Assembly (NCBI GenBank): GCA_026126215.1
Contig: JAHCJQ010000004.1
Location: forward strand, 1 to 64,000
Reading direction: 5' to 3'
DNA from: Alphaproteobacteria bacterium
GTDB lineage: Bacteria; Pseudomonadota; Alphaproteobacteria; Ferrovibrionales; Ferrovibrionaceae
DNA: 64,000 nt
In this document: positions 8,306 to 53,347 of the stretch, in pieces
Position numbering within the stretch: position 1 is the first letter of the stretch
Layout of the letters: each line of letters begins with the position of its first letter
Position numbers and translations under genes: made by a program
Notes under the pieces: generated by a model
What the model saw: only the letters and a program-made list of their open reading frames with translations
Database searches by the model: none
Told to the model about the DNA's origin: nothing

Positions 8306-9382
8306 ATGGCGAAATCAGGCGAAGCTTCGGTGAAGCGGATCAATCTCGCCCTGCAGGGCGGCGGGGCGCATGGCGCCTTCACCTGGGGCGTTCTCGACCG
8401 GCTACTGTCGGACGAGCGTATCGCCATCGACGGGCTGAGCGGAACTTCGGCCGGGGCCATGAATGCCGCGCTGGTGGTCGATGGCTGGGCCCGGGGCGGT
8501 CGCGATGGCGCGCGCGAGGCCCTCGATACGTTCTGGCGCCGCATTGGGGATGCCGGGCGCTTCAGCCCTCTGGCGCCGAGCCCGATCGAGCGCTGGTTCG
8601 GCGGCTGGAGCTATGATCGCGCGCCGGCGTTTGCCTGGTTCGACGCGATGACGCGTTTTCTTTCCCCCTACCAGACCAATCCGTTCAACTACAACCCGCT
8701 GCGCCGCATCCTTGAGCGCTCCATCGAATTCGACTGCCTGCGCGCCTGCACGGACATGCGTCTGTTCATCTCGGCCACCAACGTGCGCAAGGGCAAGAAC
8801 CGCATCTTCACCTCCGAGGAGATTGATATCGACGTGCTGCTGGCGTCCGCCTGCCTGCCGCATCTCTTTCATGCGGTCGAGATCGGCGAGCAGTCCTACT
8901 GGGATGGAGGATTTCTCGGCAATCCGGCGCTCTATCCCCTGATCTACAACTGCCAGTCCCGCGACATCGTGATCGTGCAGATCAATCCGCTGGAGATTCT
9001 CGAGACCCCGCGCTCGGCCGCCGCGATCCTCGACCGGATGAACGATATCAGTTTCAACGCTGCCCTGATCGCCGAGATCCGCGCCATCGACTTTGTCGGC
9101 CGCCAGCTCGACCAGCATCGGCTGCAGGAGGGACGCTACAAGCACATGCTGCTGCACATGATCGAGGCGGAAGGGGCACTGCGCGAGTTCGGCTATGCCA
9201 GCAAGATCGCCGCGGACCGGCATTTCCTTGAACACTTGCGCGGCATCGGCGAACGGGCGGCGGATGCGTGGCTCGCGGCGAACTTCGAGCGCCTCGGCGC
9301 GGAGACCACGCTCCCGGTCGAGCGCTTCCTGAGCGCCGACCAGCGCCAGCCCGCCCGGGTGGCGGGAGCGCCCTCGCGTTGA
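8306..9382 (+). CDS. Patatin-like phospholipase (RssA/YchK type)
   Basis: 358 residues from ATG at 8306, chosen because GGAG precedes it at 8294-8297 and because it places the fold at the usual position; the frame is open further upstream. The oxyanion loop is GGGAHG (18-23), the nucleophile elbow GTSAG has Ser48, and the catalytic Asp is in WDGGFLGNPALYPL. These form the Ser-Asp dyad of bacterial patatins, which hydrolyse acyl esters. No signal peptide is present, so it is cytoplasmic. The substrate is unknown. It starts 89 bases from the divergent permease and lies just before the valine genes. Confidence 0.9.
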   Translation: MAKSGEASVKRINLALQGGGAHGAFTWGVLDRLLSDERIAIDGLSGTSAGAMNAALVVDGWARGGRDGAREALDTFWRRIGDAGRFSPLAPSPIERWFGGWSYDRAPAFAWFDAMTRFLSPYQTNPFNYNPLRRILERSIEFDCLRACTDMRLFISATNVRKGKNRIFTSEEIDIDVLLASACLPHLFHAVEIGEQSYWDGGFLGNPALYPLIYNCQSRDIVIVQINPLEILETPRSAAAILDRMNDISFNAALIAEIRAIDFVGRQLDQHRLQEGRYKHMLLHMIEAEGALREFGYASKIAADRHFLEHLRGIGERAADAWLAANFERLGAETTLPVERFLSADQRQPARVAGAPSR

Positions 9383-9439
9383 CAGGGTGGCTCCGGTCCC
9401 ATAATCAAGTCGTCTCTTGCAGGAACGCGGACGGGAAAG

Positions 9440-10588
9440 ATGGATTTCCGACTGAGCGACGACCAGCTTGCCTTCCAGGCTTCGGCGCGCGCATTCGCCG
9501 TCGAGCGGATGGCGCCCAACGCCGCGCGCTGGGACGAGGAAAAGATCTTTCCCGAGGAGGTGCTTCGCGAGGCGGCGGCGCTGGGCTTTGCCGGCATCTA
9601 CGTGCAGGAGGATGTGGGCGGCTCTGGCCTTTCGCGTCTCGATGCCACCATCCTCTTCGAAGAACTGGCCGCCGCATGTCCGTCCACCGCCGCCTACATC
9701 TCGATCCACAACATGGCGGCCTGGATGATCGACCGCTTCGGCGACGGAGAACAGCGCCGGCGCTTCCTGCCCAAGCTCTGCACGATGGAACACTTCGCCA
9801 GCTATTGCCTGACCGAGCCTGGTTCCGGTTCGGATGCGGCGTCGTTGCGCACGCGCGCCGTGCGCGATGGCGAGCATTATGTCCTGAACGGCAGCAAGGC
9901 ATTCATCTCCGGCGGCGGCCGGTCGGACATCTATGTCTGCATGGTGCGAACGGGCGGGGACGGGCCGGGCGGGGTTTCCTGCATCGTGGTGGAGAAGGGC
10001 ACGCCGGGGCTCGCCTTCGGCGCGCAGGAGCGCAAGCTCGGCTGGAACAGCCAGCCGACCGCGATGGTGATCTTCGAGGATTGTCGTGTTCCCGTCGCCA
10101 ACCGGATCGGCGCCGAGGGGCAAGGGTTCCGCATCGCCATGATGGGGCTCGATGGCGGACGGCTCAATATCGGCGCCTGCTCGATCGGCGCGGCGCGGGC
10201 CGCGCTCGAGTTTTCGCGGGAACATGTGTCGGTGCGCAGCCAGTTCGGCCGGCCGCTCGCCTCCTTCCAGGCGCTGCAGTTCAAGCTTGCCGACATGGCG
10301 ACGGAACTTGAGGCGGCGCGCCTCATGATCCGGCAGGGGGCCTTCGCGCTGGACCGTGCCGATCCGGACGCCACCATGCTCTGCGCGATGGCCAAGCGAT
10401 TCGCCACCGACGCCGGCTTCGCCATCTGCAACGAGGCGTTGCAGCTCCATGGCGGTTATGGCTATCTCAAGGACTACCCGATCGAGCGCCTGATGCGCGA
10501 TCTGCGCGTGCACCAGATCCTCGAGGGCACCAACGAGATCATGCGGGTGATCGTGGCGCGCCGGCTGCTCGAACAGCGTAACCAGTAA
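9440..10588 (+). CDS. Acyl-CoA dehydrogenase, probably isobutyryl-CoA dehydrogenase
   Basis: 382 residues of standard acyl-CoA dehydrogenase architecture: N-terminal helical domain, FAD-binding middle ([18 protein letters not shown]) and C-terminal helices. The catalytic base is the Glu in the ending [18 protein letters not shown], the site used by isobutyryl/short-chain enzymes. It is the first gene of a run followed by 3-hydroxyisobutyryl-CoA hydrolase and 3-hydroxyisobutyrate dehydrogenase, so oxidation of isobutyryl-CoA to methacrylyl-CoA in valine degradation is the likely reaction. The substrate is inferred from context. Confidence 0.88.
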
Positions 10589-10607
10589 CGACGGACCCGA
10601 CCTTCCC

Positions 10608-11663
10608 ATGACCGAACAGGAAATTCTCTTTGGCCGCGACGGCCGGCTGGCGCATGTGTTGCTCAACCGTCCGAAGGCGCTGAACGCGCTGACGCATGGG
10701 ATGTGCCTGGCTTTCGCCGCGCAGCTCAGGGAGTGGGAGGGCGATGACCGGATCGGAGCGGTGCTGATCCGGGGCGCTGGCGGCAAGGCGTTCTGCGCCG
10801 GCGGCGACATCCGCAAGCTTTACGAGGAGGGGCGCGCGGGCGGCGCGTATCCCTACCGGTTCTATGGCGACGAATATCGGCTCAATGCGCATATCAAGCG
10901 ATTCGCCAAGCCCTACATCGCCTTCATGGATGGCATTACTATGGGCGGTGGCGTGGGCTTTTCCGTGCATGGCCGGCGTCGCATCGTTACCGAGAATACC
11001 GTCTTTGCCATGCCGGAGACGGGCATCGGCCTGTTTCCAGACGTGGGCGGGACGCATTTCCTTTCCCGCTGTCCGGGCGGCATCGGCATGTATCTGGCGC
11101 TGACCGGCGCGCGCATGAAGGCGGCGGACTGCCTGCATGCTCGCGTTGCGGACGCCTTCGTGCCGGCGGCGCGTCTCGACGAACTGGCGGCGGCGCTGGC
11201 GCGGAGCGCGCTTCGGGGCGACGTTGCCGAAATCGATGCCATGGTTGCGACTTTTGCCGGCGATCCCGGGCCATCGGAGCTGGCCCGGCACCGCGCGACG
11301 ATCGACCAATGCTTTGCCGGAGACTCGGTCGAGGCAATCCTCGGCAATCTGGAGCGGGCAGGCACCGAATTCGCCGCCGATTGCGCGCGCGTCATCCGTA
11401 CCAAGTCGCCCACGAGCTGCAAGATCGCCTTCCGTCAGGTGCGCGCTGGTGCGAACCTGTCGATGGATGAGTGCATGCGTCTGGAGTGGCGCGTGGTAAC
11501 CCGGGTCATCCGTGGTCACGACTTTTATGAGGGCGTGCGCGCGGTAATTATCGACAAGGACCAGAAGCCGCGCTGGAACCCGGCGCGGTTCGAGGATGTA
11601 AGCGACGCGGAGATCGATCGTTACTTCGCGCCGCCGGAAGAGGGGGAGCTGCCGCTGCCCTGA
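10608..11663 (+). CDS. 3-hydroxyisobutyryl-CoA hydrolase (crotonase fold)
   Basis: 351 residues, longer than a simple enoyl-CoA hydratase and matching the HIBCH group. The CoA-binding loop FCAGGDIRKLYEEGR and the oxyanion segment TMGGGVGFSVHGRRRIVTE are present, and PETGIGLFPDVGGTHFL carries the Glu and Asp typical of the hydrolases. The enzyme releases 3-hydroxyisobutyrate from its CoA ester. It starts 19 bases after the acyl-CoA dehydrogenase and precedes the dehydrogenase that uses its product, so the three steps are consecutive in valine catabolism. Confidence 0.9.
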   Translation: MTEQEILFGRDGRLAHVLLNRPKALNALTHGMCLAFAAQLREWEGDDRIGAVLIRGAGGKAFCAGGDIRKLYEEGRAGGAYPYRFYGDEYRLNAHIKRFAKPYIAFMDGITMGGGVGFSVHGRRRIVTENTVFAMPETGIGLFPDVGGTHFLSRCPGGIGMYLALTGARMKAADCLHARVADAFVPAARLDELAAALARSALRGDVAEIDAMVATFAGDPGPSELARHRATIDQCFAGDSVEAILGNLERAGTEFAADCARVIRTKSPTSCKIAFRQVRAGANLSMDECMRLEWRVVTRVIRGHDFYEGVRAVIIDKDQKPRWNPARFEDVSDAEIDRYFAPPEEGELPLP

Positions 11664-11695
11664 AAGGGCGGCGCGGCGCATGGCAGGAGGCGGAC

Positions 11696-12589
11696 ATGAC
11701 GGCAATCGGTTTCATCGGCGTCGGCAACATGGGCGGGCCGATGGCGCAGAACCTCGTCAAGGCAGGCCACGACGTGAAAGCGTTCGACCTGGCGAAAGAG
11801 GCTCTGCAGAAGGCAGTTTCGGCCGGCGCACGCGCCGCGACGTCCGCCCAGGACGCTGCGCGCGACGTGGAAGTGGTGATCACGATGCTGCCCGCGGGCC
11901 AGCACGTAAAGGCGACCTATCTGGGCCCCGGTGGCATTCTCGGCGCGGCGCGCAAGGGCACGCTCTTCATCGACTCCTCGACCATCGACGTGGACAGTGC
12001 CCGCGAGGTGGCGAAAGCCGCCGACACCGCCGGCATGCTGATGATCGACGCACCCGTCTCGGGCGGCACCGGCGGCGCGGCCGCGGCGACGCTCACTTTC
12101 ATGGTGGGCGGCAGCGAGGCAGCCTTCGCCAGGGCGCTGCCGATCCTCGAGAAGATGGGCAAGACCATCGTCCATGCCGGCGGCGCCGGCAATGGCCAGG
12201 CGGCCAAGATCTGCAACAACATGATCCTCGGCATTTCCATGATCGCAGTGTCGGAGGCGTTTGTCCTGGCGGAGAAACTCGGCCTCGATCACCAGAAGCT
12301 CTTCGACATCGCCTCGAAATCCTCGGGCCAGTGCTGGTCGCTCACCACCTATTGCCCGGTTCCGGGGCCGGTGCCGACCTCGCCGGCCAACCGGGACTAT
12401 CAGCCCGGGTTCACGGCCGACATGATGCTGAAGGACCTCAAGCTCGCCCAGCAGGCGGCGACGGCCGTTGCCGCCGCTACGCCGCTCGGCGCGGATGCGG
12501 CGCGTGTCTATTCCGATTTCTCGGAAGCCGGGAATGGCGCTGTCGATTTCTCGGGGATCATCCGCATGCTGCGGGCGGCGAAACGCTGA
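11696..12589 (+). CDS. mmsB: 3-hydroxyisobutyrate dehydrogenase
   Basis: 297 residues. The Rossmann motif is GFIGVGNMGGPMA; FIDSSTIDVDSAREV and DAPVSGGTGGAAAATLTFMVGG are the substrate-binding signatures of the beta-hydroxyacid dehydrogenase family, and the catalytic Lys is in NGQAAKICNN. It oxidises 3-hydroxyisobutyrate to methylmalonate semialdehyde with NAD+. An ATG preceded by an AGGAGG-like site (around 11684-11690) fixes the start. The next enzyme of the pathway, methylmalonate-semialdehyde dehydrogenase (mmsA), is not in the window. Confidence 0.93.
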   Translation: MTAIGFIGVGNMGGPMAQNLVKAGHDVKAFDLAKEALQKAVSAGARAATSAQDAARDVEVVITMLPAGQHVKATYLGPGGILGAARKGTLFIDSSTIDVDSAREVAKAADTAGMLMIDAPVSGGTGGAAAATLTFMVGGSEAAFARALPILEKMGKTIVHAGGAGNGQAAKICNNMILGISMIAVSEAFVLAEKLGLDHQKLFDIASKSSGQCWSLTTYCPVPGPVPTSPANRDYQPGFTADMMLKDLKLAQQAATAVAAATPLGADAARVYSDFSEAGNGAVDFSGIIRMLRAAKR

Positions 12590-12599
12590 CGAACGCCGC

Positions 12600-13232
12600 A
12601 TGGATGCCCATATCCTGATCTCGGCTGCCCTCGCCGGAGCGCTGGTCGTACTGACGCCGGGGCCGGGCGTTCTGGCGGTGCTCGGTATCGGCGCGGCGCA
12701 GGGCCGGCGCGCGGGCGCGGGGTTCCTGTTCGGGCATCTGGCCGGCGACCTGCTCTGGGCGGTTCTGGCGCTGGTGGCGCTGGTCTGGGCGAGCCTGCTC
12801 TCGCCGGACTTCTTCCGGGTTCTGGCTCTGGTCTGCGCGCTCTATCTCGGTTGGCTCGGCCTGCGCGCGCTGCTGGTGAAGCGGAGCGCGCTGGGCGCGG
12901 CGGGCGGCGCGCTGCGTGTGGAGCGGCCATGGATGCGTGGTCTGCTGTTTGGGCTCAGCAATCCGAAAAGCTACCCCGTCACCCTGTCCATCTTTGCAGC
13001 GCTTCTTGGCGGAAGTCTCGACAAGCTTACGCCCGGGAATGCGCCGCTGCTGCTGGCGGCCTGCTTCGTCGGCTTCTTCCTCGCCGACCTGGTGCTGATC
13101 TGGCTGGTCGGGCTCGGTGCGCTGCGCGCGCTCTACCGGCGACACGAAATCTGGGTGCTGCGTGGCACCGGCCTGATGTTCATCGGCTTCGCGCTCGGCA
13201 CCCTGCATCATGCGTTGAATGGCGGCACCTGA
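12600..13232 (+). CDS. LysE/RhtB-family amino-acid exporter
   Basis: 210 residues from ATG at 12600, with about six membrane helices. The N-terminal LTPGPGVLAVLGIGAAQGRRAGAGFLFGHLAGDL is the hallmark of LysE/RhtB translocators, and SNPKSYPVTLSIF matches the conserved NPK loop. The family exports amino acids or related compounds. It begins 11 bases after mmsB, so it is probably co-transcribed with the valine genes and might relieve excess branched-chain amino acid. The substrate is not determinable. Confidence 0.88.
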   Translation: MDAHILISAALAGALVVLTPGPGVLAVLGIGAAQGRRAGAGFLFGHLAGDLLWAVLALVALVWASLLSPDFFRVLALVCALYLGWLGLRALLVKRSALGAAGGALRVERPWMRGLLFGLSNPKSYPVTLSIFAALLGGSLDKLTPGNAPLLLAACFVGFFLADLVLIWLVGLGALRALYRRHEIWVLRGTGLMFIGFALGTLHHALNGGT

Positions 13233-13253
13233 AAATCGAAGGAGGGCGGGATC

Positions 13254-14042
13254 TTGAGCTACGTGAGTATCGAAAGGTCTGGCCGCATCGCCGTCGTCCG
13301 CTTCGATCGCGGCGACGGTCGTAACGCGCTGTCGCGGGCACTGATCCGCGAACTGACCGCGGCGGCGCGGAGTTTCGAGGAGGATGGCGAGGTTTCGGCC
13401 GTCATCCTGACCGGATCGGCGCAGGCGTTTTCCGTCGGTTACGACTTGAAGGATCCTTCCGTGGCCGAGGCGTCCCGGGCCGGGCTGATGCAGAAGCGAC
13501 TGTTGCAGCAATCCGGTCCGAGGCTCTGCCGGGCCTTCGAGGAGATCGACGCGGTGACTATCTGCGCCATCGAGGGCTGGTGCATCGGCGGCGGCGTGGC
13601 ACTGGCGGTGGCCTGCGACTTCCGCGTGGCGGCGCGCGATGCGACCTTCTACGTACCGGAGATAGAGCGCGGCATGAACATGAGCTGGCAGTCCCTGCCG
13701 CGCATGGTCGCGCTGATGGGACCGGCCCGCACCAAGCAGCTTGCCATCCTGGCGGAGAAGGTTCCGGCGGAACAGGCGCTTGCCTGGGGCCTGATCGAGG
13801 AGACGACCGAGCCTGGTGGTGCGCTTTCCCGCGCCATGGCGATGGCGGAGCGGATCGCGGCCCTGCCTCCGGTTCCGGTGCGCATGATCAAGCGCGGGGT
13901 CAGCATCGCGGCCGGCGCACTCGGTCATGCGACGAGCTATATGGATGCCGACCAGTTCGTGCTGGCCCAGACCGGCGAGGATTTCGCCGAAGGCGTAAAT
14001 TCGTTTCTCGAACGGCGCAAGCCGCGCTTCACCGGGCGCTGA
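13254..14042 (+). CDS. Enoyl-CoA hydratase/isomerase family protein
   Basis: 262 residues starting at TTG 13254, supported by a strong AAGGAGGG site at 13239-13246. Crotonase fold: the CoA pocket is AFSVGYDLKD, the oxyanion segment is IEGWCIGGGVALAVACDF, and a conserved acidic residue lies in VPEIERGMNMSWQSLPRM. The usual first AGAD-type loop is altered to SVGYD, so the exact reaction (hydratase, isomerase or hydrolase) is uncertain. It lies in the acyl-CoA catabolic run 22 bases after the exporter. Confidence 0.82.
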   Translation: MSYVSIERSGRIAVVRFDRGDGRNALSRALIRELTAAARSFEEDGEVSAVILTGSAQAFSVGYDLKDPSVAEASRAGLMQKRLLQQSGPRLCRAFEEIDAVTICAIEGWCIGGGVALAVACDFRVAARDATFYVPEIERGMNMSWQSLPRMVALMGPARTKQLAILAEKVPAEQALAWGLIEETTEPGGALSRAMAMAERIAALPPVPVRMIKRGVSIAAGALGHATSYMDADQFVLAQTGEDFAEGVNSFLERRKPRFTGR

Positions 14043-45942: not shown

Positions 45943-46659
45943 ATGGCATATGGATTGCTTGATAAAGGATTAAGAATTGTGGGTGTCGCAGAGGCGAGGT
46001 GGCTCATGACCAGCGAAAAGTTGAGGTCCCGTCTGCTCGGTACCGTCTTCGGGGCGGCGCTGGTGGCTTTCGGTCCAGGTTTCGCTGCGGCGCACACGCT
46101 GCCCACATCAATCCTGCAGGGGGGTGATTCCTACGGTTTTGAGGATCCCTGCGACTCCGGCGGAGGCACCGGCAGCGGTTGCGAGCCAGGGCCGAACGAC
46201 ATGGAAGGCAACGAGCCGGAGGACGGCGGCAGCAACCCATTCGATCAGAAGACAAATCTCTCGCTGTTCGGTTCCTCGGGCACCGGCACGGGCGGTGGTG
46301 GCGGCGGCTCCGGTGGCGGCGGTGGCGGATCCGGCGGCGGCGGCGGGGGTGAAGCCGGCGGCGGCGGAGGTGGAGCCGGCGGCGGTGACGGCGAAGGGGA
46401 TGGTGAAGGCGACGGCGAGGAGAATACCAAGGGCGGGCCGGAGGGCGAGGAGAATCCAATCCCGCCGCTGGCTTTGCTTACGCTCGACCCGCTGAACGAA
46501 GAGGGCGAGGAAACCGACGGCGAGCAGCAGACCAACCTGCGCACCTCGGTGGTGCCGGAGCCGGGCACGCTCTCTCTGCTTGGCTTGGCCTTGCTTGGCC
46601 TCGGCGGTTTGATGATGGGGCGGCGCCGATTGCTGGCGCGGCGGGTGAAATCCGACTGA
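45943..46659 (+). CDS. PEP-CTERM sorting-domain protein, Gly/Glu-rich
   Basis: 238 residues from ATG 45943, or 217 from ATG 46006; both have a plausible ribosome site (AAGGA at 45930-45934; GAGG at 45995-45998). An N-terminal signal sequence (LLGTVFGAALVAFGPGFAAA) precedes a long low-complexity middle (about 55-185) made of GGGGGGS-like and GDGEGDGEE-like stretches with no recognised domain. The C-terminus VPEPGTLSLLGLALLGLGG followed by RRRLLARR is a textbook PEP-CTERM signal: PEP, transmembrane helix, basic cluster. Such proteins are sorted by an exosortase to the envelope or exopolysaccharide. No exosortase gene is in the window. A terminator follows. Confidence 0.88.
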   Translation: MAYGLLDKGLRIVGVAEARWLMTSEKLRSRLLGTVFGAALVAFGPGFAAAHTLPTSILQGGDSYGFEDPCDSGGGTGSGCEPGPNDMEGNEPEDGGSNPFDQKTNLSLFGSSGTGTGGGGGGSGGGGGGSGGGGGGEAGGGGGGAGGGDGEGDGEGDGEENTKGGPEGEENPIPPLALLTLDPLNEEGEETDGEQQTNLRTSVVPEPGTLSLLGLALLGLGGLMMGRRRLLARRVKSD

Positions 46660-47876: not shown

Positions 47877-49328
47877 ATGGCACCGGCGGGCCGTGGGGGC
47901 AAAATGACTGTGCCGCAACCTTTCGGGATCAAGCGCGATCTTGAATTGCAGACCGAACGGACCGCGGATGGCCGCCGGCCGTGGCATGGAATGGTCGCGG
48001 CATCGGCGCAGAAGGGCGCCGGAAGCGAGATCCGCTTCGAGCAGCTTGGTCAGACTCTTTCGAGCAGCATCTATGCGGTCGCGCTGGAAGCGGCGGCGGC
48101 ACTTCTGATCGTGCTCGGCCTCGGCGGCCTGGTGCCGCCAGCGGTGCTCGCCACCTGGTTCCTGCTGGTCTGGGGCCTCGCGGCGGCCCGCGCCATGCTT
48201 TGGTATCGCTACAAGCGGTGGTTCATCTCGGCGGATTCCATAGGGCAGGCGCAAGCCCTGCTTGTCTGCGTCAGTGCTGCGAGCGGCCTGCTTTGGGGCG
48301 GGGCGCTGGTCTTTCTCTGGCCGTTCGAGGCGAACGTACACCAGGTCTTCCTGGTGATGACCGCGGCGGCGATCGCGGCGGCCTCATCCGGCCTGATGCT
48401 GAGCCACCTTCCCTCCCTGATGGTCTTCATCGGCGCCGGGTTGCTGATGGTCGTCCTCGGCTATCCACGCAATGGCGGAGACAGCCTCTATGGGCTGATT
48501 GCCGGCTTCGCGCTGCCGTATGCGCTGATCCTTGGCCTCGTGGCACGCCATATCAACTCGATCCTTGTCAAGTCCCACATGCTGCGGCTCGAACTGGCAT
48601 CTGCCAAGGAAGAGGCGCAGGTGGCGAGCCGGGCCAAGTCGGAATTCATCTCCAGCATCAGTCACGAGTTGCGCACGCCGCTCAATGCGGTGATCGGTTT
48701 CTCCGAGATCATGATGCAGCAGATGTTCGGCCCCATCGGCAATGCCCAGTATCTGGACTATACCAAGGACATCCACCGCTCCGGCTCGCACCTGCTCGCC
48801 ATCATCAACGATATCCTCGACCTGACCAAGATCGAGGCCGGCAAGATGGTGGTGCATGAATCGGAGGTTGATGTCTCCGAGGTCGTCACCGCCACGGTCA
48901 GTATCCTGCGCGACAGCGCCGACAAGGCGGGGCTCGAGGTGGATTGCCGCTGGCCGGAGCCGGCGCCCCGACTCAAATGCGACGAGCGACTGCTCAAGCA
49001 GATGCTGCTCAACCTGATCTCTAACGCGATCAAGTTCACGCCGATCGGCGGCAAGGTAAGCATCACGGTGGAGCGGACGCCCGGGCGCGAAACGCTGATC
49101 GTTGTGCACGATACGGGCATCGGCATCGCGCCCGACGACATGGAGCTGGTCATGCAGGCGTTCGGCCAGGTCGAGGGGGCGATGACGCGGCAGCATTCCG
49201 GCACCGGCCTTGGTCTGCCCCTGGTGAAAGCCATGGCGGAACTGCATGGCGCCAGGTTCGAATTGCAAAGCACGGTCGATGTGGGCACGACGGCCACGCT
49301 TCGCTTTTCCGCCGCCAGTGCGGCCTGA
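47877..49328 (+). CDS. Membrane-bound histidine kinase, intact, no receiver
   Basis: 483 residues (ATG 47904 is an alternative). Five to six hydrophobic segments (about 63-225) form the sensor, with no obvious periplasmic domain. A short coiled stretch (LELASAKEEAQVASRAKSE) leads to HisKA with phosphoacceptor His in SHELRTPLNAVIGFSE. The HATPase has N-box NLISNAIKFTP, G1 DTGIGIAP and G2 SGTGLGLPLVKAM, all intact. No response regulator is adjacent. It is 344 bases upstream of, and on the same strand as, the autoinducer synthase. The neighbouring CqsS-like protein lacks these catalytic features, so this may be its working partner; that is inference. Confidence 0.9.
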   Translation: MAPAGRGGKMTVPQPFGIKRDLELQTERTADGRRPWHGMVAASAQKGAGSEIRFEQLGQTLSSSIYAVALEAAAALLIVLGLGGLVPPAVLATWFLLVWGLAAARAMLWYRYKRWFISADSIGQAQALLVCVSAASGLLWGGALVFLWPFEANVHQVFLVMTAAAIAAASSGLMLSHLPSLMVFIGAGLLMVVLGYPRNGGDSLYGLIAGFALPYALILGLVARHINSILVKSHMLRLELASAKEEAQVASRAKSEFISSISHELRTPLNAVIGFSEIMMQQMFGPIGNAQYLDYTKDIHRSGSHLLAIINDILDLTKIEAGKMVVHESEVDVSEVVTATVSILRDSADKAGLEVDCRWPEPAPRLKCDERLLKQMLLNLISNAIKFTPIGGKVSITVERTPGRETLIVVHDTGIGIAPDDMELVMQAFGQVEGAMTRQHSGTGLGLPLVKAMAELHGARFELQSTVDVGTTATLRFSAASAA

Positions 49329-49519: not shown

Positions 49520-49672
49520 CCAAAAAATTGGATACCTTATTTTAGGATGTGCATCTCAAGCACATGTTAAGAAATAGTTATCGTAGTTGCGTCGCCATCG
49601 TTTTTGTCCTCAATGGCAACGAAGGTGGTTTGGCAGGCCGAATGTAATAGTAAAGAAGCGAGGCGGGGGCCA

Positions 49673-50926
49673 ATGTCGTTGCCGTTCGAGTGCGGAAGTT
49701 CTTCCGTTATTTCCAGACCTCGGGATTGGGGCGAACTTCCGGGCCTTACCTGGCGGATCGAACAGTATTTCGAGCGCTTCAAGGACGGACACGCGACGAA
49801 GGGCATTCCGCCAACGGCGAAGACCCTTATCTTTTCGAGTAACGACTATCTGTCGATCGGCGGCGATCCCCGGATCGTTGAGGCGCAGGTCCGGCGCCTT
49901 CGCGAGTTCGGGGATTCGGTGCTCATGTCGGCGGTATTCCTGCATTCCGAGACCGAGCAGCGCGCTTTCGAGCGCCGTATCGCCCGATTCATGGGCGCCG
50001 AAGATGCCGTGCTCTGCCAGTCCGGCTGGTGCGCCAATGACGGCCTGATCCAGACCCTGGCCGACCAGACGATCCCGATCTATTTCGACATGTTCGCGCA
50101 CATGTCCTTCTGGCAGGGCGCGCAGAGCGCCGGCGTCAAGGCGCGGCCATTCCGCCATAACAGCGTGGAGAACCTGGCGGCGCTGATCCGCAAGAACGGC
50201 CCGGGCATCGTCGGCGTCGATTCCGTCTATTCCACGACCGGCGATATCGCGCCGCTCGCGGAGCTGGCGGAGTTGTGCGAGGCGGAAGGTTGCCTGCTCA
50301 TCGTGGACGAGAGCCATTCCGCCGGTGTGTTCGGCGCGTCAGGCGAGGGACTGGTCGCCATGCTGGGCCTGCAGGACAGGGTGCCCTACCGAACCCTCAG
50401 CATGTCGAAGGCATTCGCCTCTCGTGCCGGCCTTGTGGTCGGGCCGTCACGCGCGCTCGAGTTCTACCGTTATGAGTCGCGGCCGGCGATCTTTTCCTCG
50501 GCGGTGGTGCCGCATGAGATTGCCGCTTTCGAGGCGTCGCTGGATGTGATCGAGGCGGAAGGCCCGCGCCGGACCCGCTTGCAGGAGAGTGCAAGTTATC
50601 TACGCAACAGGCTGGACGAACTGGGCTACAACGTCGATATCAGCCAGACACAGATCATTGCGCTGGAGGCGGGGACCGAGGCGGCGACCATCCGCCTGCG
50701 TCGGGCACTCGAGAGTCGCCACATCCAGGGTGCGGTCTTCTGCGCCCCCGCCACGCCAAAGAACCGGGCGCTGGTGCGTTTCTCGGTGACGGCTGCGCAT
50801 ACGCCCGAGCAACTCGACCGTGTCGCCGAGGTCTGCGCGGAGATCCGCGACGAGGTGGGAATGCGCGACTGGCCCTCGACCCAGCGCAAGAGCGTGCGCA
50901 GCCGCAGGCTCACGGTCGCCGCCTGA
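49673..50926 (+). CDS. cqsA: Alpha-hydroxyketone autoinducer synthase (CqsA/LqsA family)
   Basis: 417 residues from ATG 49673, chosen because LPGLTWRIEQYFERF aligns with the Vibrio N-terminus; ATG 49613 and TTG 49604 are in-frame alternatives. PLP alpha-oxoamine synthase fold, with PLP Lys near 246 in SMSKAF and the PLP-binding DESHSAGVFG. It matches V. cholerae CqsA, as I remember it, rather than 5-aminolevulinate or KBL enzymes at SNDYLSIGGD, SAVFLHSET, QSGWCANDGLIQT, IYFDMFAHMSFWQGA, GPGIVGVDSVYSTTGDIAPLAEL and RPAIFSSAVVPHE. CqsA joins an amino acid or SAM to an acyl-CoA to make an alpha-aminoketone, precursor of CAI-1-type signals. A CqsS-like receptor gene is 0.8 kb away. Confidence 0.92.
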   Translation: MSLPFECGSSSVISRPRDWGELPGLTWRIEQYFERFKDGHATKGIPPTAKTLIFSSNDYLSIGGDPRIVEAQVRRLREFGDSVLMSAVFLHSETEQRAFERRIARFMGAEDAVLCQSGWCANDGLIQTLADQTIPIYFDMFAHMSFWQGAQSAGVKARPFRHNSVENLAALIRKNGPGIVGVDSVYSTTGDIAPLAELAELCEAEGCLLIVDESHSAGVFGASGEGLVAMLGLQDRVPYRTLSMSKAFASRAGLVVGPSRALEFYRYESRPAIFSSAVVPHEIAAFEASLDVIEAEGPRRTRLQESASYLRNRLDELGYNVDISQTQIIALEAGTEAATIRLRRALESRHIQGAVFCAPATPKNRALVRFSVTAAHTPEQLDRVAEVCAEIRDEVGMRDWPSTQRKSVRSRRLTVAA

Positions 50927-50942: not shown

Positions 50943-51716
50943 TCAGCCCTGGACCGAATATCCGCCATCGACCGGGATGGCCGTCCCGGTGACGAAATCC
51001 GAAGCGGCGCTGGCGAGGAACACGGCGATCCCCGCATGATCCTCCGGCCGGCCCCAGCGGCCCGCCGGCGTGCGCGCCAGGACGCGCTCGTGCAGGCCGG
51101 GAACGTCGCTACGGGCGCGGCGCGTCAGATCCGTGTCGATCCAGCCCGGCAGCACCGCATTGACCTGGATGTTGTCTGCGGCCCAGGCGCTTGCCAGCGC
51201 GCGCGTCAGTTGCACGATGCCGCCCTTGCTGGCGGCATAGGGGCCGGCAAAGGAAGCGCCGAAGATCGACATCATGGAGCCGATATTGATGATCTTGCCA
51301 CCACCGGCCCGCTTCATCGCCGGATAGGCCGCCTGCGCGGCGATGAAGGCGCTGGTCAGATTGGTGTCGAGGATCTGCCGCCATTCCGCGAGAGCGTATT
51401 CCTCCGGCCGCTTGCGGATGTTGATGCCGGCATTGTTGATCAGGATATCGAGGCGCAGGTGGCGTTGCTCGATCTCCGCGACCACGCGCTTCAGATCGGC
51501 TTCGCTCGTGACGTCGCCCTGATGCGCCGATGCCGGCCGGCCCAGCGCGGCCAACGAGGCAAGCGCGGCCTCGTTCTTGTCGCGGTTCCGGCCGAGAATG
51601 GCGACCGTGGCACCGGCTTCGGCAAGTCCTTTGGCCATGCCGAGACCTATCCCGCCATTGCCGCCGGTCACCAGCGCGACGCGGGCGGTCAGATCGAAAG
51701 CCTTCATGGAAATCAA
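50943..51716 (-). CDS. Short-chain dehydrogenase/reductase in the receptor operon
   Basis: 257 residues. Classical SDR: cofactor motif TGGNGGIGLGMA, NNAGIN, catalytic Ser in NIGSMMS, and YAASK with Tyr/Lys. The C-terminus WIDTDLTRRARSDVPGLHERVLARTPAGRWG resembles gluconate 5-dehydrogenase or 3-ketoacyl reductase-like SDRs. It starts 16 bases after the CqsS-like gene stops, so they share a transcript, and it ends 16 bases from convergent cqsA. A role in converting the CqsA product is attractive: I recall that a Vibrio SDR (VC1059) has been linked to CAI-1 maturation. That role here is inference; a general metabolic SDR is the alternative. Confidence 0.85.
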   Translation of the reverse strand: MISMKAFDLTARVALVTGGNGGIGLGMAKGLAEAGATVAILGRNRDKNEAALASLAALGRPASAHQGDVTSEADLKRVVAEIEQRHLRLDILINNAGINIRKRPEEYALAEWRQILDTNLTSAFIAAQAAYPAMKRAGGGKIINIGSMMSIFGASFAGPYAASKGGIVQLTRALASAWAADNIQVNAVLPGWIDTDLTRRARSDVPGLHERVLARTPAGRWGRPEDHAGIAVFLASAASDFVTGTAIPVDGGYSVQG

Positions 51717-51732: not shown

Positions 51733-53085
51733 TCAGGCCACCACCCGCGGCACGGCGCGCAGCGGCGAGCGCTTCACGGCCGGCAAGTGGAGCTGGAACT
51801 CCGTGAAGCGCCCGTATTCGGAGCGGCAGAAGATCTCGCCCGAGAAGCCCTCCACCACCGCCTTGCAGAACGCAAGGCCACCGGAGGAAGCAATCGTCGG
51901 ATCTACGTAACTGCTGGCACCCTCGAAGATCGCCGAAGTCTGCGCCGCCGGAATCCCGAAACCCGTTTCGCGTATGAATAGATAGTTCTCCTCCGCGCCG
52001 GTGCCGATGCGGATGCTGATTTCGCCCTTGCCGGCGCGTGTCACGCTGTAGAGCGAATTCTTGATCAGCATCATCAGAACGCGGATCATCAGGCTATCGT
52101 TGCCGAGGAAGCTGAAATCGCCGTCGCGCTTCCAGACGATGCGCTGGCGCTCACGGTCGCTGCGGAAAGGATAGGTCTGCAAGGCCGCATCGACGCAGTC
52201 GGCGATCGAGCGGACGTTGAACGTATTGGGGTCGATGGTCACATTACGCGCATCGGCCGACGCCATCTCGAAGAGCGTGTTGACATGCTCCGCTTCCAGG
52301 CGAATACGCTCGACGACGCCTTCGAGCGCCACCAGTTCGCGCCGTTCGATGTTGGGTACCGGCAGGTTGCTATTGCGCGCGATCTGGTAGGCGCGGAGCA
52401 GGTCCGGCATGAACTTGGCAAGTCCGAGCATGCCGGCGCGCATGCCGTTGAGCGAGGGCCTCAGCTCGCGCGCGAGGTTCTGCCCGAATTCGTGCGCGGC
52501 GCGATGGCGTTCGCGTCGCAGCAGTTCGGACTTGTAGTTGAAGATGCTGCCGGCAATGAGCGCGAAGATGAAGATCGGCAGATACTCGCCATAACGGGCC
52601 AGCAGTTCCAGATTGCCGACACCGTTGTAGTAGGCAAAAGTCGCGGCGACGACCGTGCCGGCGGTGAAGAGAAGGAGCGAACTCAGCCAATCCACCAGCA
52701 TGACCAACAGCACGACGCTGATCAGGTTCGAGAGCAGCCAGATCACGGAAAATTCGTTCCGGATCAGCATGTAGTTGAAGAAGAAGGGCAGGCAGAAAAA
52801 GACGGAAAAGAACCAGTAGGCCGGAAAGAGGCCGCGCAGCTCGCGCGGCCAGCGGCTGTTCAGGGCCAGACCGAGACAGAGGATGGCGCCGGCCATGCGC
52901 AGGGAGAGGTTCTCGTAAGACTGCGGGACCAGCGCATACCATACGAAGTAGTAGAGTGGAAATCCGATGAAGCCGACCCAGCCGATGGCGCCGATATTGG
53001 GGCGTGCCTGTTCCAGCGATCGCGCGGCCAGGTCCCTGTACGCGCTCGCCCATTGCAGGGGCGATATGAGCTCGCGCTGGAACAT
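51733..53085 (-). CDS. CqsS-like autoinducer receptor, degenerate kinase, no receiver
   Basis: 450 residues. Six hydrophobic segments (about 30-185) match the CqsS sensor as I remember it: PNIGAIGWVGFIGFPLYYF, VPQSYENLSLR, FCLPFFFNYMLI, and SVIWLLS, whose Trp116 and Ser119 correspond to CqsS Trp104 and Ser107 of the ligand pocket. Phe182 sits where V. cholerae has Cys170. The H-box is ARELRPSL: Arg206 replaces the phosphoacceptor His194 of CqsS. The N-box Asn is kept (MLIKNSLYS), but G1 is ETGFGIP instead of DxGxG and G2 is SSGGLAF. It ends after the HATPase-like domain, whereas CqsS carries a receiver. It probably binds an alpha-hydroxyketone but cannot autophosphorylate normally. It leads into the SDR gene and follows the 77-residue gene. 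Confidence 0.88.
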   Translation of the reverse strand: MFQRELISPLQWASAYRDLAARSLEQARPNIGAIGWVGFIGFPLYYFVWYALVPQSYENLSLRMAGAILCLGLALNSRWPRELRGLFPAYWFFSVFFCLPFFFNYMLIRNEFSVIWLLSNLISVVLLVMLVDWLSSLLLFTAGTVVAATFAYYNGVGNLELLARYGEYLPIFIFALIAGSIFNYKSELLRRERHRAAHEFGQNLARELRPSLNGMRAGMLGLAKFMPDLLRAYQIARNSNLPVPNIERRELVALEGVVERIRLEAEHVNTLFEMASADARNVTIDPNTFNVRSIADCVDAALQTYPFRSDRERQRIVWKRDGDFSFLGNDSLMIRVLMMLIKNSLYSVTRAGKGEISIRIGTGAEENYLFIRETGFGIPAAQTSAIFEGASSYVDPTIASSGGLAFCKAVVEGFSGEIFCRSEYGRFTEFQLHLPAVKRSPLRAVPRVVA

Positions 53086-53113: not shown

Positions 53114-53347
53114 CTAGCGCCCTGCGACGCGACGCGCGAGCGGGACCACGTTGGCGGACCGCGGTTCTGCCGGCGCCGGTTCGCACACCGCCTCGAAATC
53201 CTGGTTCTCGATCAGCTCGGCCAAGCGCTCGAGCCGCGACCAGGTGGCGCGCAGCTCGCGTGCGACACCATCGTCCCACAGATCGACGGAGCGCAGGATC
53301 TCTGCCGCCTGCCGCAGGTCGCGAACCGCATTGTGACTGATCATCAT
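53114..53347 (-). CDS. 77-residue helical protein upstream of the CqsS-like gene
   Basis: Begins MMISHNAVRDLRQAAEIL; predicted helical to about residue 55 (LRATWSRLERLAELIENQDFEAV), then a Pro/Ala-rich tail ending in Arg. There is no signal peptide or membrane helix. An AGGGGG stretch precedes the ATG at 53347. It is the first gene of the receptor operon, 28 bases before the receptor start. It is about the right size for a phosphotransfer or adaptor protein but lacks an HPt motif (HxxKG). I recognise no family. Confidence 0.65.
   Translation of the reverse strand: MMISHNAVRDLRQAAEILRSVDLWDDGVARELRATWSRLERLAELIENQDFEAVCEPAPAEPRSANVVPLARRVAGR

Follow-up and report, generated by a model that had tools for sequence, protein, structure and literature searches.

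The locus analysed here raises the question of what a quorum-sensing receptor of CqsS/LqsS descent can do when an arginine occupies the site of its phosphoacceptor histidine. The receptor gene lies beside a gene for a synthase of alpha-hydroxyketone (AHK) quorum signals in the window, by which we mean the whole stretch of DNA that was analysed (64,000 nt), and its surroundings are summarized in Table 1. A sequence-only reading of this DNA had proposed a functional sensory pseudokinase, and this is still the best reading, with catalytic residues lost and the dead domains under purifying selection. The finding is real, and it is stronger than that reading stated.

Table 1 Features of the receptor locus in the window
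Feature	Position	Strand	Remarks
Glycine-rich PEP-CTERM protein gene	45943..46659	+	Lies upstream of the kinase, with a methyltransferase gene nearby
Intact membrane HisKA-HATPase histidine kinase, candidate partner	47877..49328	+	Best NCBIfam match DivJ/PdhS-like, below cut-off
AHK quorum-sensing autoinducer synthase, CqsA/LqsA type (cqsA)	49604..50926	+	NF005526, 501 bits (cut-off 428)
Short-chain dehydrogenase/reductase (SDR)	50943..51716	-	16 nt downstream of the receptor gene
CqsS/LqsS-derived putative sensory pseudokinase gene	51733..53085	-	450 aa, ATG to stop; real ORF
Receptor domains			Residues: membrane sensor ~9-186; DHp 187-290; degenerate CA 291-440
Arg206 codon	52468..52470	-	CGC; phosphoacceptor His site (CqsS H194)
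76-aa ORF	53114..53344	-	Just upstream of the receptor gene; conserved in the congener, with the first 58 residues identical; no Pfam family

The receptor is a membrane AHK sensor homologous to CqsS. W116 and S119 align with W104 and S107, the ligand positions of CqsS (PMC3376566), and both residues are kept. It shares with CqsS of Vibrio and LqsS of Legionella a common descent, a six-TM-type sensor with Trp and Ser at the ligand positions, and linkage to cqsA/lqsA, the two genes being about 33 kb apart in Tistrella. With Pfam, an HATPase_c domain was recognized (42.6 bits) and neither a HisKA nor a PAS domain was found, and the top NCBIfam match is the LuxN kinase core, far under the cut-off. 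The predicted structure, based on 36 homologues (pLDDT 81), comprises a helical membrane bundle, a long helix running from TM6 into the DHp domain (159-238), a second DHp helix (248-279) and a CA fold, of which the ATP-lid stretch is poorly predicted. Structural matches to this model were the cytoplasmic portions of histidine kinases, among them HK853, DivL, and RetS.

The H-box reads NLARELRPSL, and alignment to His-bearing homologues places R206 at their His, as had been proposed from the motif ARELRPSL in comparison with His194 of CqsS. The glycine boxes (ETGFGIP and SSGGLAF) are altered, again as proposed: the Asp of G1 is replaced by Glu373 (D373E) and one Gly of G2 by Ser401 (G401S). Two further changes had been missed, namely the replacement of the first Asn of the N-box by Met339 (N339M) and the presence of Pro210 at the phosphatase position His+4, which is normally occupied by Thr or Asn. 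Neither the acceptor His nor the intact N, G1, and G2 boxes of the CqsS/LqsS kinases are therefore present. In Vibrio cholerae CqsS, the mutation H194Q abolishes autophosphorylation (PMC3310172), and this laboratory state occurs naturally in the homologue of genome G007. Judged from these residues, canonical kinase activity of the receptor is very unlikely, phosphatase activity is doubtful, and the status of pseudokinase is well supported. We file the receptor as a CqsS/LqsS-descended pseudokinase and not as a CqsS-type kinase, because the search for an acceptor His and for a cognate regulator beside the receptor found neither. The C-terminal receiver, whose absence had been counted among the losses, is indeed absent, but this is not special to the window protein and was rejected as a sign of damage, since the closest His-bearing relatives, which are of the LqsS type, also have no receiver and use a separate LqsR-like gene.

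A recent mutation or a sequencing error had been named as an alternative source of Arg206. For the window genome and for G001, the latter a MAG, the assemblies are drafts, but an error was rejected because the codon is CGC in both congeners, G000 and G001, amid synonymous differences around it. Three other alphaproteobacterial lineages exhibit Gln, Lys, or Arg at this site. These came from searches covering 61 relatives, 385 sampled genomes of the class and 398 of the phylum, together with GTDB contigs and plasmids, in which 56 homologous ORFs were recovered. The His is absent in seven genomes: G000 and G001 (Arg), G007 (Gln), G018 (Lys), and the three Tistrella-type genomes G050, G178, and G275 (Arg). 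The remaining homologues that were inspected have His at the acceptor site. Arg is shared with the congener, but it is not itself the conserved state, as Gln and Lys occur in sister lineages.

All seven His-less proteins form one clade with respect to 40 His-bearing relatives, with support of 100/98 on the full length (472 columns) and of 82/57 on the sensor columns alone. The simplest reading is a single loss of the His, and the clade probably represents one evolutionary event; having one origin, the losses that are linked to it are correlations and not independent replicates. In the class sample, the cqsA-bearing groups with a close CqsS homologue are the window genus, G018, and Tistrella, and all three are His-less. 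The orders of G018 and G050 yielded no further genomes, and the plasmid search added only one record to the clade, a Tistrella one; the match in G275 coincides with pTM3 of Tistrella mobilis KA081020-065.

The extent of the damage varies along the clade. The glycine boxes are kept in G018, which has Lys at the His site and Pro at His+4; they are altered in the window protein and destroyed in G007. The Tistrella-type receptors, with Arg at the His site and Met at His+1, are only about 297 aa long, end just past the DHp helices, and have no CA domain. This gradient bears on the possibility that the receptor is still a kinase, which would either use another acceptor residue or phosphorylate, through its CA domain, the His of a partner within a heterodimer. 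Recognition of HATPase_c in the window and G018 proteins fits such activity, as do His194 and His198, slightly upstream of the acceptor site in the window protein, but N339M, D373E, and G401S in that same protein do not. As G007 has no His at either of these places and its G boxes are gone, and as Tistrella has no CA domain, neither route could be common to the clade; migration of the acceptor to His194/His198 was rejected for the clade on the G007 protein. We therefore give a persisting kinase little probability.

The same gradient from G018 through the window and G007 to Tistrella could be taken to mean that the receptor is a decaying relic on its way to loss. The pattern of substitution largely refutes this. 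Between G000 and G001, the receptor gene shows 8 residue differences and 58 synonymous changes, distributed as 7 replacements versus 21 synonymous changes in the sensor half and 1 versus 37 in DHp+CA (Fisher p = 0.008 for the difference between the halves). Although catalytically dead, the DHp+CA half is therefore constrained, and between the two congeners purifying selection acts on it more strongly than on the sensor half. The proposal that selection preserved ligand binding and let the rest go was consequently not upheld; the sensor half is kept, as had been claimed, with W116 and S119 in place, but it is less conserved between congeners than the catalytic half. Even the truncated Tistrella receptor is constrained (dN/dS of 0.10, G178 versus G050), and the reading frame is open in all seven His-less genomes. 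Moreover, in the window genus, G007, and G018 the gene has stayed next to cqsA, and decay is extremely improbable. A fold that is kept, according to the prediction, together with lost catalytic residues and purifying selection, is what we would expect of a sensory histidine pseudokinase.

If the receptor has ceased to phosphorylate, the regulator that it once served should be considered. Using a profile built from the regulators adjoining His-bearing receptors, we found an LqsR-like gene next to the receptor at 22 loci, including 13 of 13 His-bearing relatives scoring at least 230 bits to the window protein and having a usable 3' flank (L031, L044-L046, L048, L049, L070-L074, L076, and L077). 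In Vibrio, the receiver is fused to the receptor (L079). At the His-less loci, most of which were read over as much as 20 kb, no LqsR-like gene was found, nor was any detected on Tistrella pTM3; the 64,000 nt of the window gave none that was convincing, with one negligible match of 11 bits. The window receptor thus has, at its locus, neither a fused receiver nor an adjacent LqsR-like regulator. An LqsR-like neighbour is also absent beside some distant His-bearing homologues. Between the receptor and cqsA ORFs, the gap narrows to 53 nt in G018 and to 30 nt in G007.

The receptor may nevertheless act on a response regulator, by binding, sequestering, or dephosphorylating one that is shared with the neighbouring kinase, much as DivL binds DivK~P. 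Histidine kinases can retain phosphatase activity without the His, the DHp and CA folds are predicted to be kept, the DHp domain is strongly constrained, and DivL structures are among the fold matches. Against it stand the Pro at His+4, the phosphatase position, in the window protein and in G018, and the Met at His+1 and the missing CA domain in Tistrella; in addition, no response-regulator gene is conserved across the His-less loci. We consider this explanation unlikely, albeit the one to be taken most seriously among the alternatives.

What does recur at the His-less loci is a kinase. In three of the four His-less lineages, represented by G000, G001, G018, and the three Tistrella-type genomes, an intact kinase related to that of the window adjoins either the receptor gene or cqsA, and such a kinase was found at 0 of 16 His-bearing loci searched, some of which had short flanks. 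At one of the His-bearing loci (L076), a dissimilar hybrid kinase lies beyond cqsA. The kinase gene of Tistrella is located upstream of the receptor gene, with 3-5 nt from its stop codon to the receptor ATG, and its product is only 38-40% identical to the window kinase. Adjacency is not universal, as G007 is an exception: its best match to the kinase (358 bits, well over the other kinases of that genome) is at an unlinked locus, next to genes that by inspection appear to be polyhydroxyalkanoate-synthase-like and RND-type. In the full-length tree, the partner kinases constitute one side of a split (86% bootstrap), and a single clade of the partner kinases of the four lineages was not rejected (AU p 0.945). 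Many membrane HisKA kinases of this kind occur in the class, and the association is therefore based on a small number of lineages. The window kinase matches DivJ with 221.7 bits (cut-off 1000) and PdhS with 197.7 bits (cut-off 2000), both over the kinase core only, and membership of either family was rejected as these scores are below the cut-offs.

The reverse assignment of roles would have the neighbouring kinase itself as the AHK receptor and the CqsS-like protein in another role, for example as a signal sink. In other alphaproteobacteria (a second locus of G018, as well as G203 and G373), cqsA has a membrane kinase of another kind as its partner gene, and in the latter two genomes no CqsS homologue was found at E 1e-20. 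A sink, however, would need no conserved DHp and CA body, and the CqsS-like protein has retained the ligand residues W116 and S119, which makes this assignment most improbable.

The best explanation, and a reasonably probable one, is in our view a pseudokinase that senses AHK and controls the kinase encoded next to it. According to this model, an ancestral CqsS/LqsS receptor kinase would have been rewired from phosphorylating LqsR to acting on a kinase. AHK made by the adjacent synthase CqsA would bind the membrane sensor of the receptor, which would not autophosphorylate and is probably also unable to dephosphorylate a regulator. The bound signal would instead shift the conformation of the DHp/CA body, and this body would raise or lower the activity of the neighbouring kinase within a hetero-complex in the membrane. 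The kinase would in turn pass the signal to a response regulator of its own, possibly one of DivK/PleD type. Ligand binding, contact with the kinase, the direction of the effect, and the nature of the regulator are inferred, and all of the evidence pointing to the receptor-kinase partnership lies in the gene neighbourhood. Signalling through another kinase, as previously suggested, is the best-supported route, with a candidate kinase adjoining; the absent response-regulator gene, the recurring kinase, and the His-less clade go beyond what the sequence-only reading had in view. The truncated Tistrella protein suggests that a sensor and dimerisation helices can suffice. More tentatively, an AHK receptor kinase may have become an obligate sensory pseudokinase that discarded its regulator and relays the quorum signal to a DivJ/PdhS-like kinase through protein contact, by which route a DivK/PleD-type pathway may receive information on cell density, with Tistrella as the natural minimal form made of sensor and dimerisation helices.

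Unlike CqsS and LqsS, the window receptor has no acceptor His, no fused receiver, no adjoining LqsR gene, and altered ATP boxes, and the His-less receptors usually adjoin an unrelated kinase. A literature search that took in few subscription journals found no published AHK receptor pseudokinase, and the nearest parallels are found in other systems. In group A Streptococcus, the six-TM pseudokinase RocA interacts with CovS (PMC7028121), and RocA without its CA domain, according to Jain 2017 as cited there, complements a rocA mutant, which resembles the natural CA-less form of Tistrella. RocA differs in having a dispensable His (H246), in belonging to another phylum, and in not being known as a quorum-signal receptor. 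The Caulobacter protein DivL is an alphaproteobacterial kinase homologue whose acceptor His is replaced; it has no kinase or phosphatase activity and acts on a second kinase, CckA (PMC4211667, PMC9491836). DivL, however, has PAS sensor domains and a Tyr at the acceptor site, neither of which is present in the window receptor, a membrane AHK sensor from a clade with Arg, Lys, or Gln there. A pseudokinase variant of ChrS likewise alters signalling through a second kinase, HrrS (PMC9491836), but is laboratory-evolved and concerns heme sensing. In the RetS-GacS pair (PMC5992135), one sensor kinase also controls another, although RetS accepts phosphoryl groups from GacS and dephosphorylates it, and the window receptor has no residues for this.

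If the model is true, the clade would be an example from nature of a receptor kinase for quorum sensing that has become a purely allosteric input, with intermediates preserved. The series from G018 through the window and G007 to Tistrella makes the minimal part of a kinase that is needed for controlling another kinase directly testable, and AHK signalling in alphaproteobacteria gains an identifiable candidate kinase.

Several other observations concern AHK synthesis. The placement of an SDR gene between cqsA and the receptor gene is seen only in the window genus. CAI-1 synthesis includes an NADPH-dependent dehydrogenase step (PMC3376566), and it is speculative that the SDR catalyses the last step of AHK synthesis by reducing a dione intermediate. 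In Tistrella (L083, L142 of G178, and pTM3, NC_017958), about 33 kb separates cqsA from the kinase-receptor pair; contig C4 of G275 carries both and matches pTM3, a plasmid typed as conjugative. In a second arrangement, cqsA is divergent from a membrane histidine kinase (L144, 9159-11976; L168, 7797-10990; L169, 7948-11119); these kinases belong to a different clade (SH-aLRT 99), and a CqsS-like gene was not seen at these loci. Locus L170 of G296 exhibits two synthase genes. The first cqsA (8523-9935, +) starts with a remnant of an IS5 transposase and precedes an ORF of 1191 aa (9938-13510, +), in which an MMPL/HAE3-type RND transporter (residues ~59-782) is fused to a complete AHK synthase (residues 809-1173; NF005526, 498.6 bits), possibly forming an exporter-synthase for the signal.
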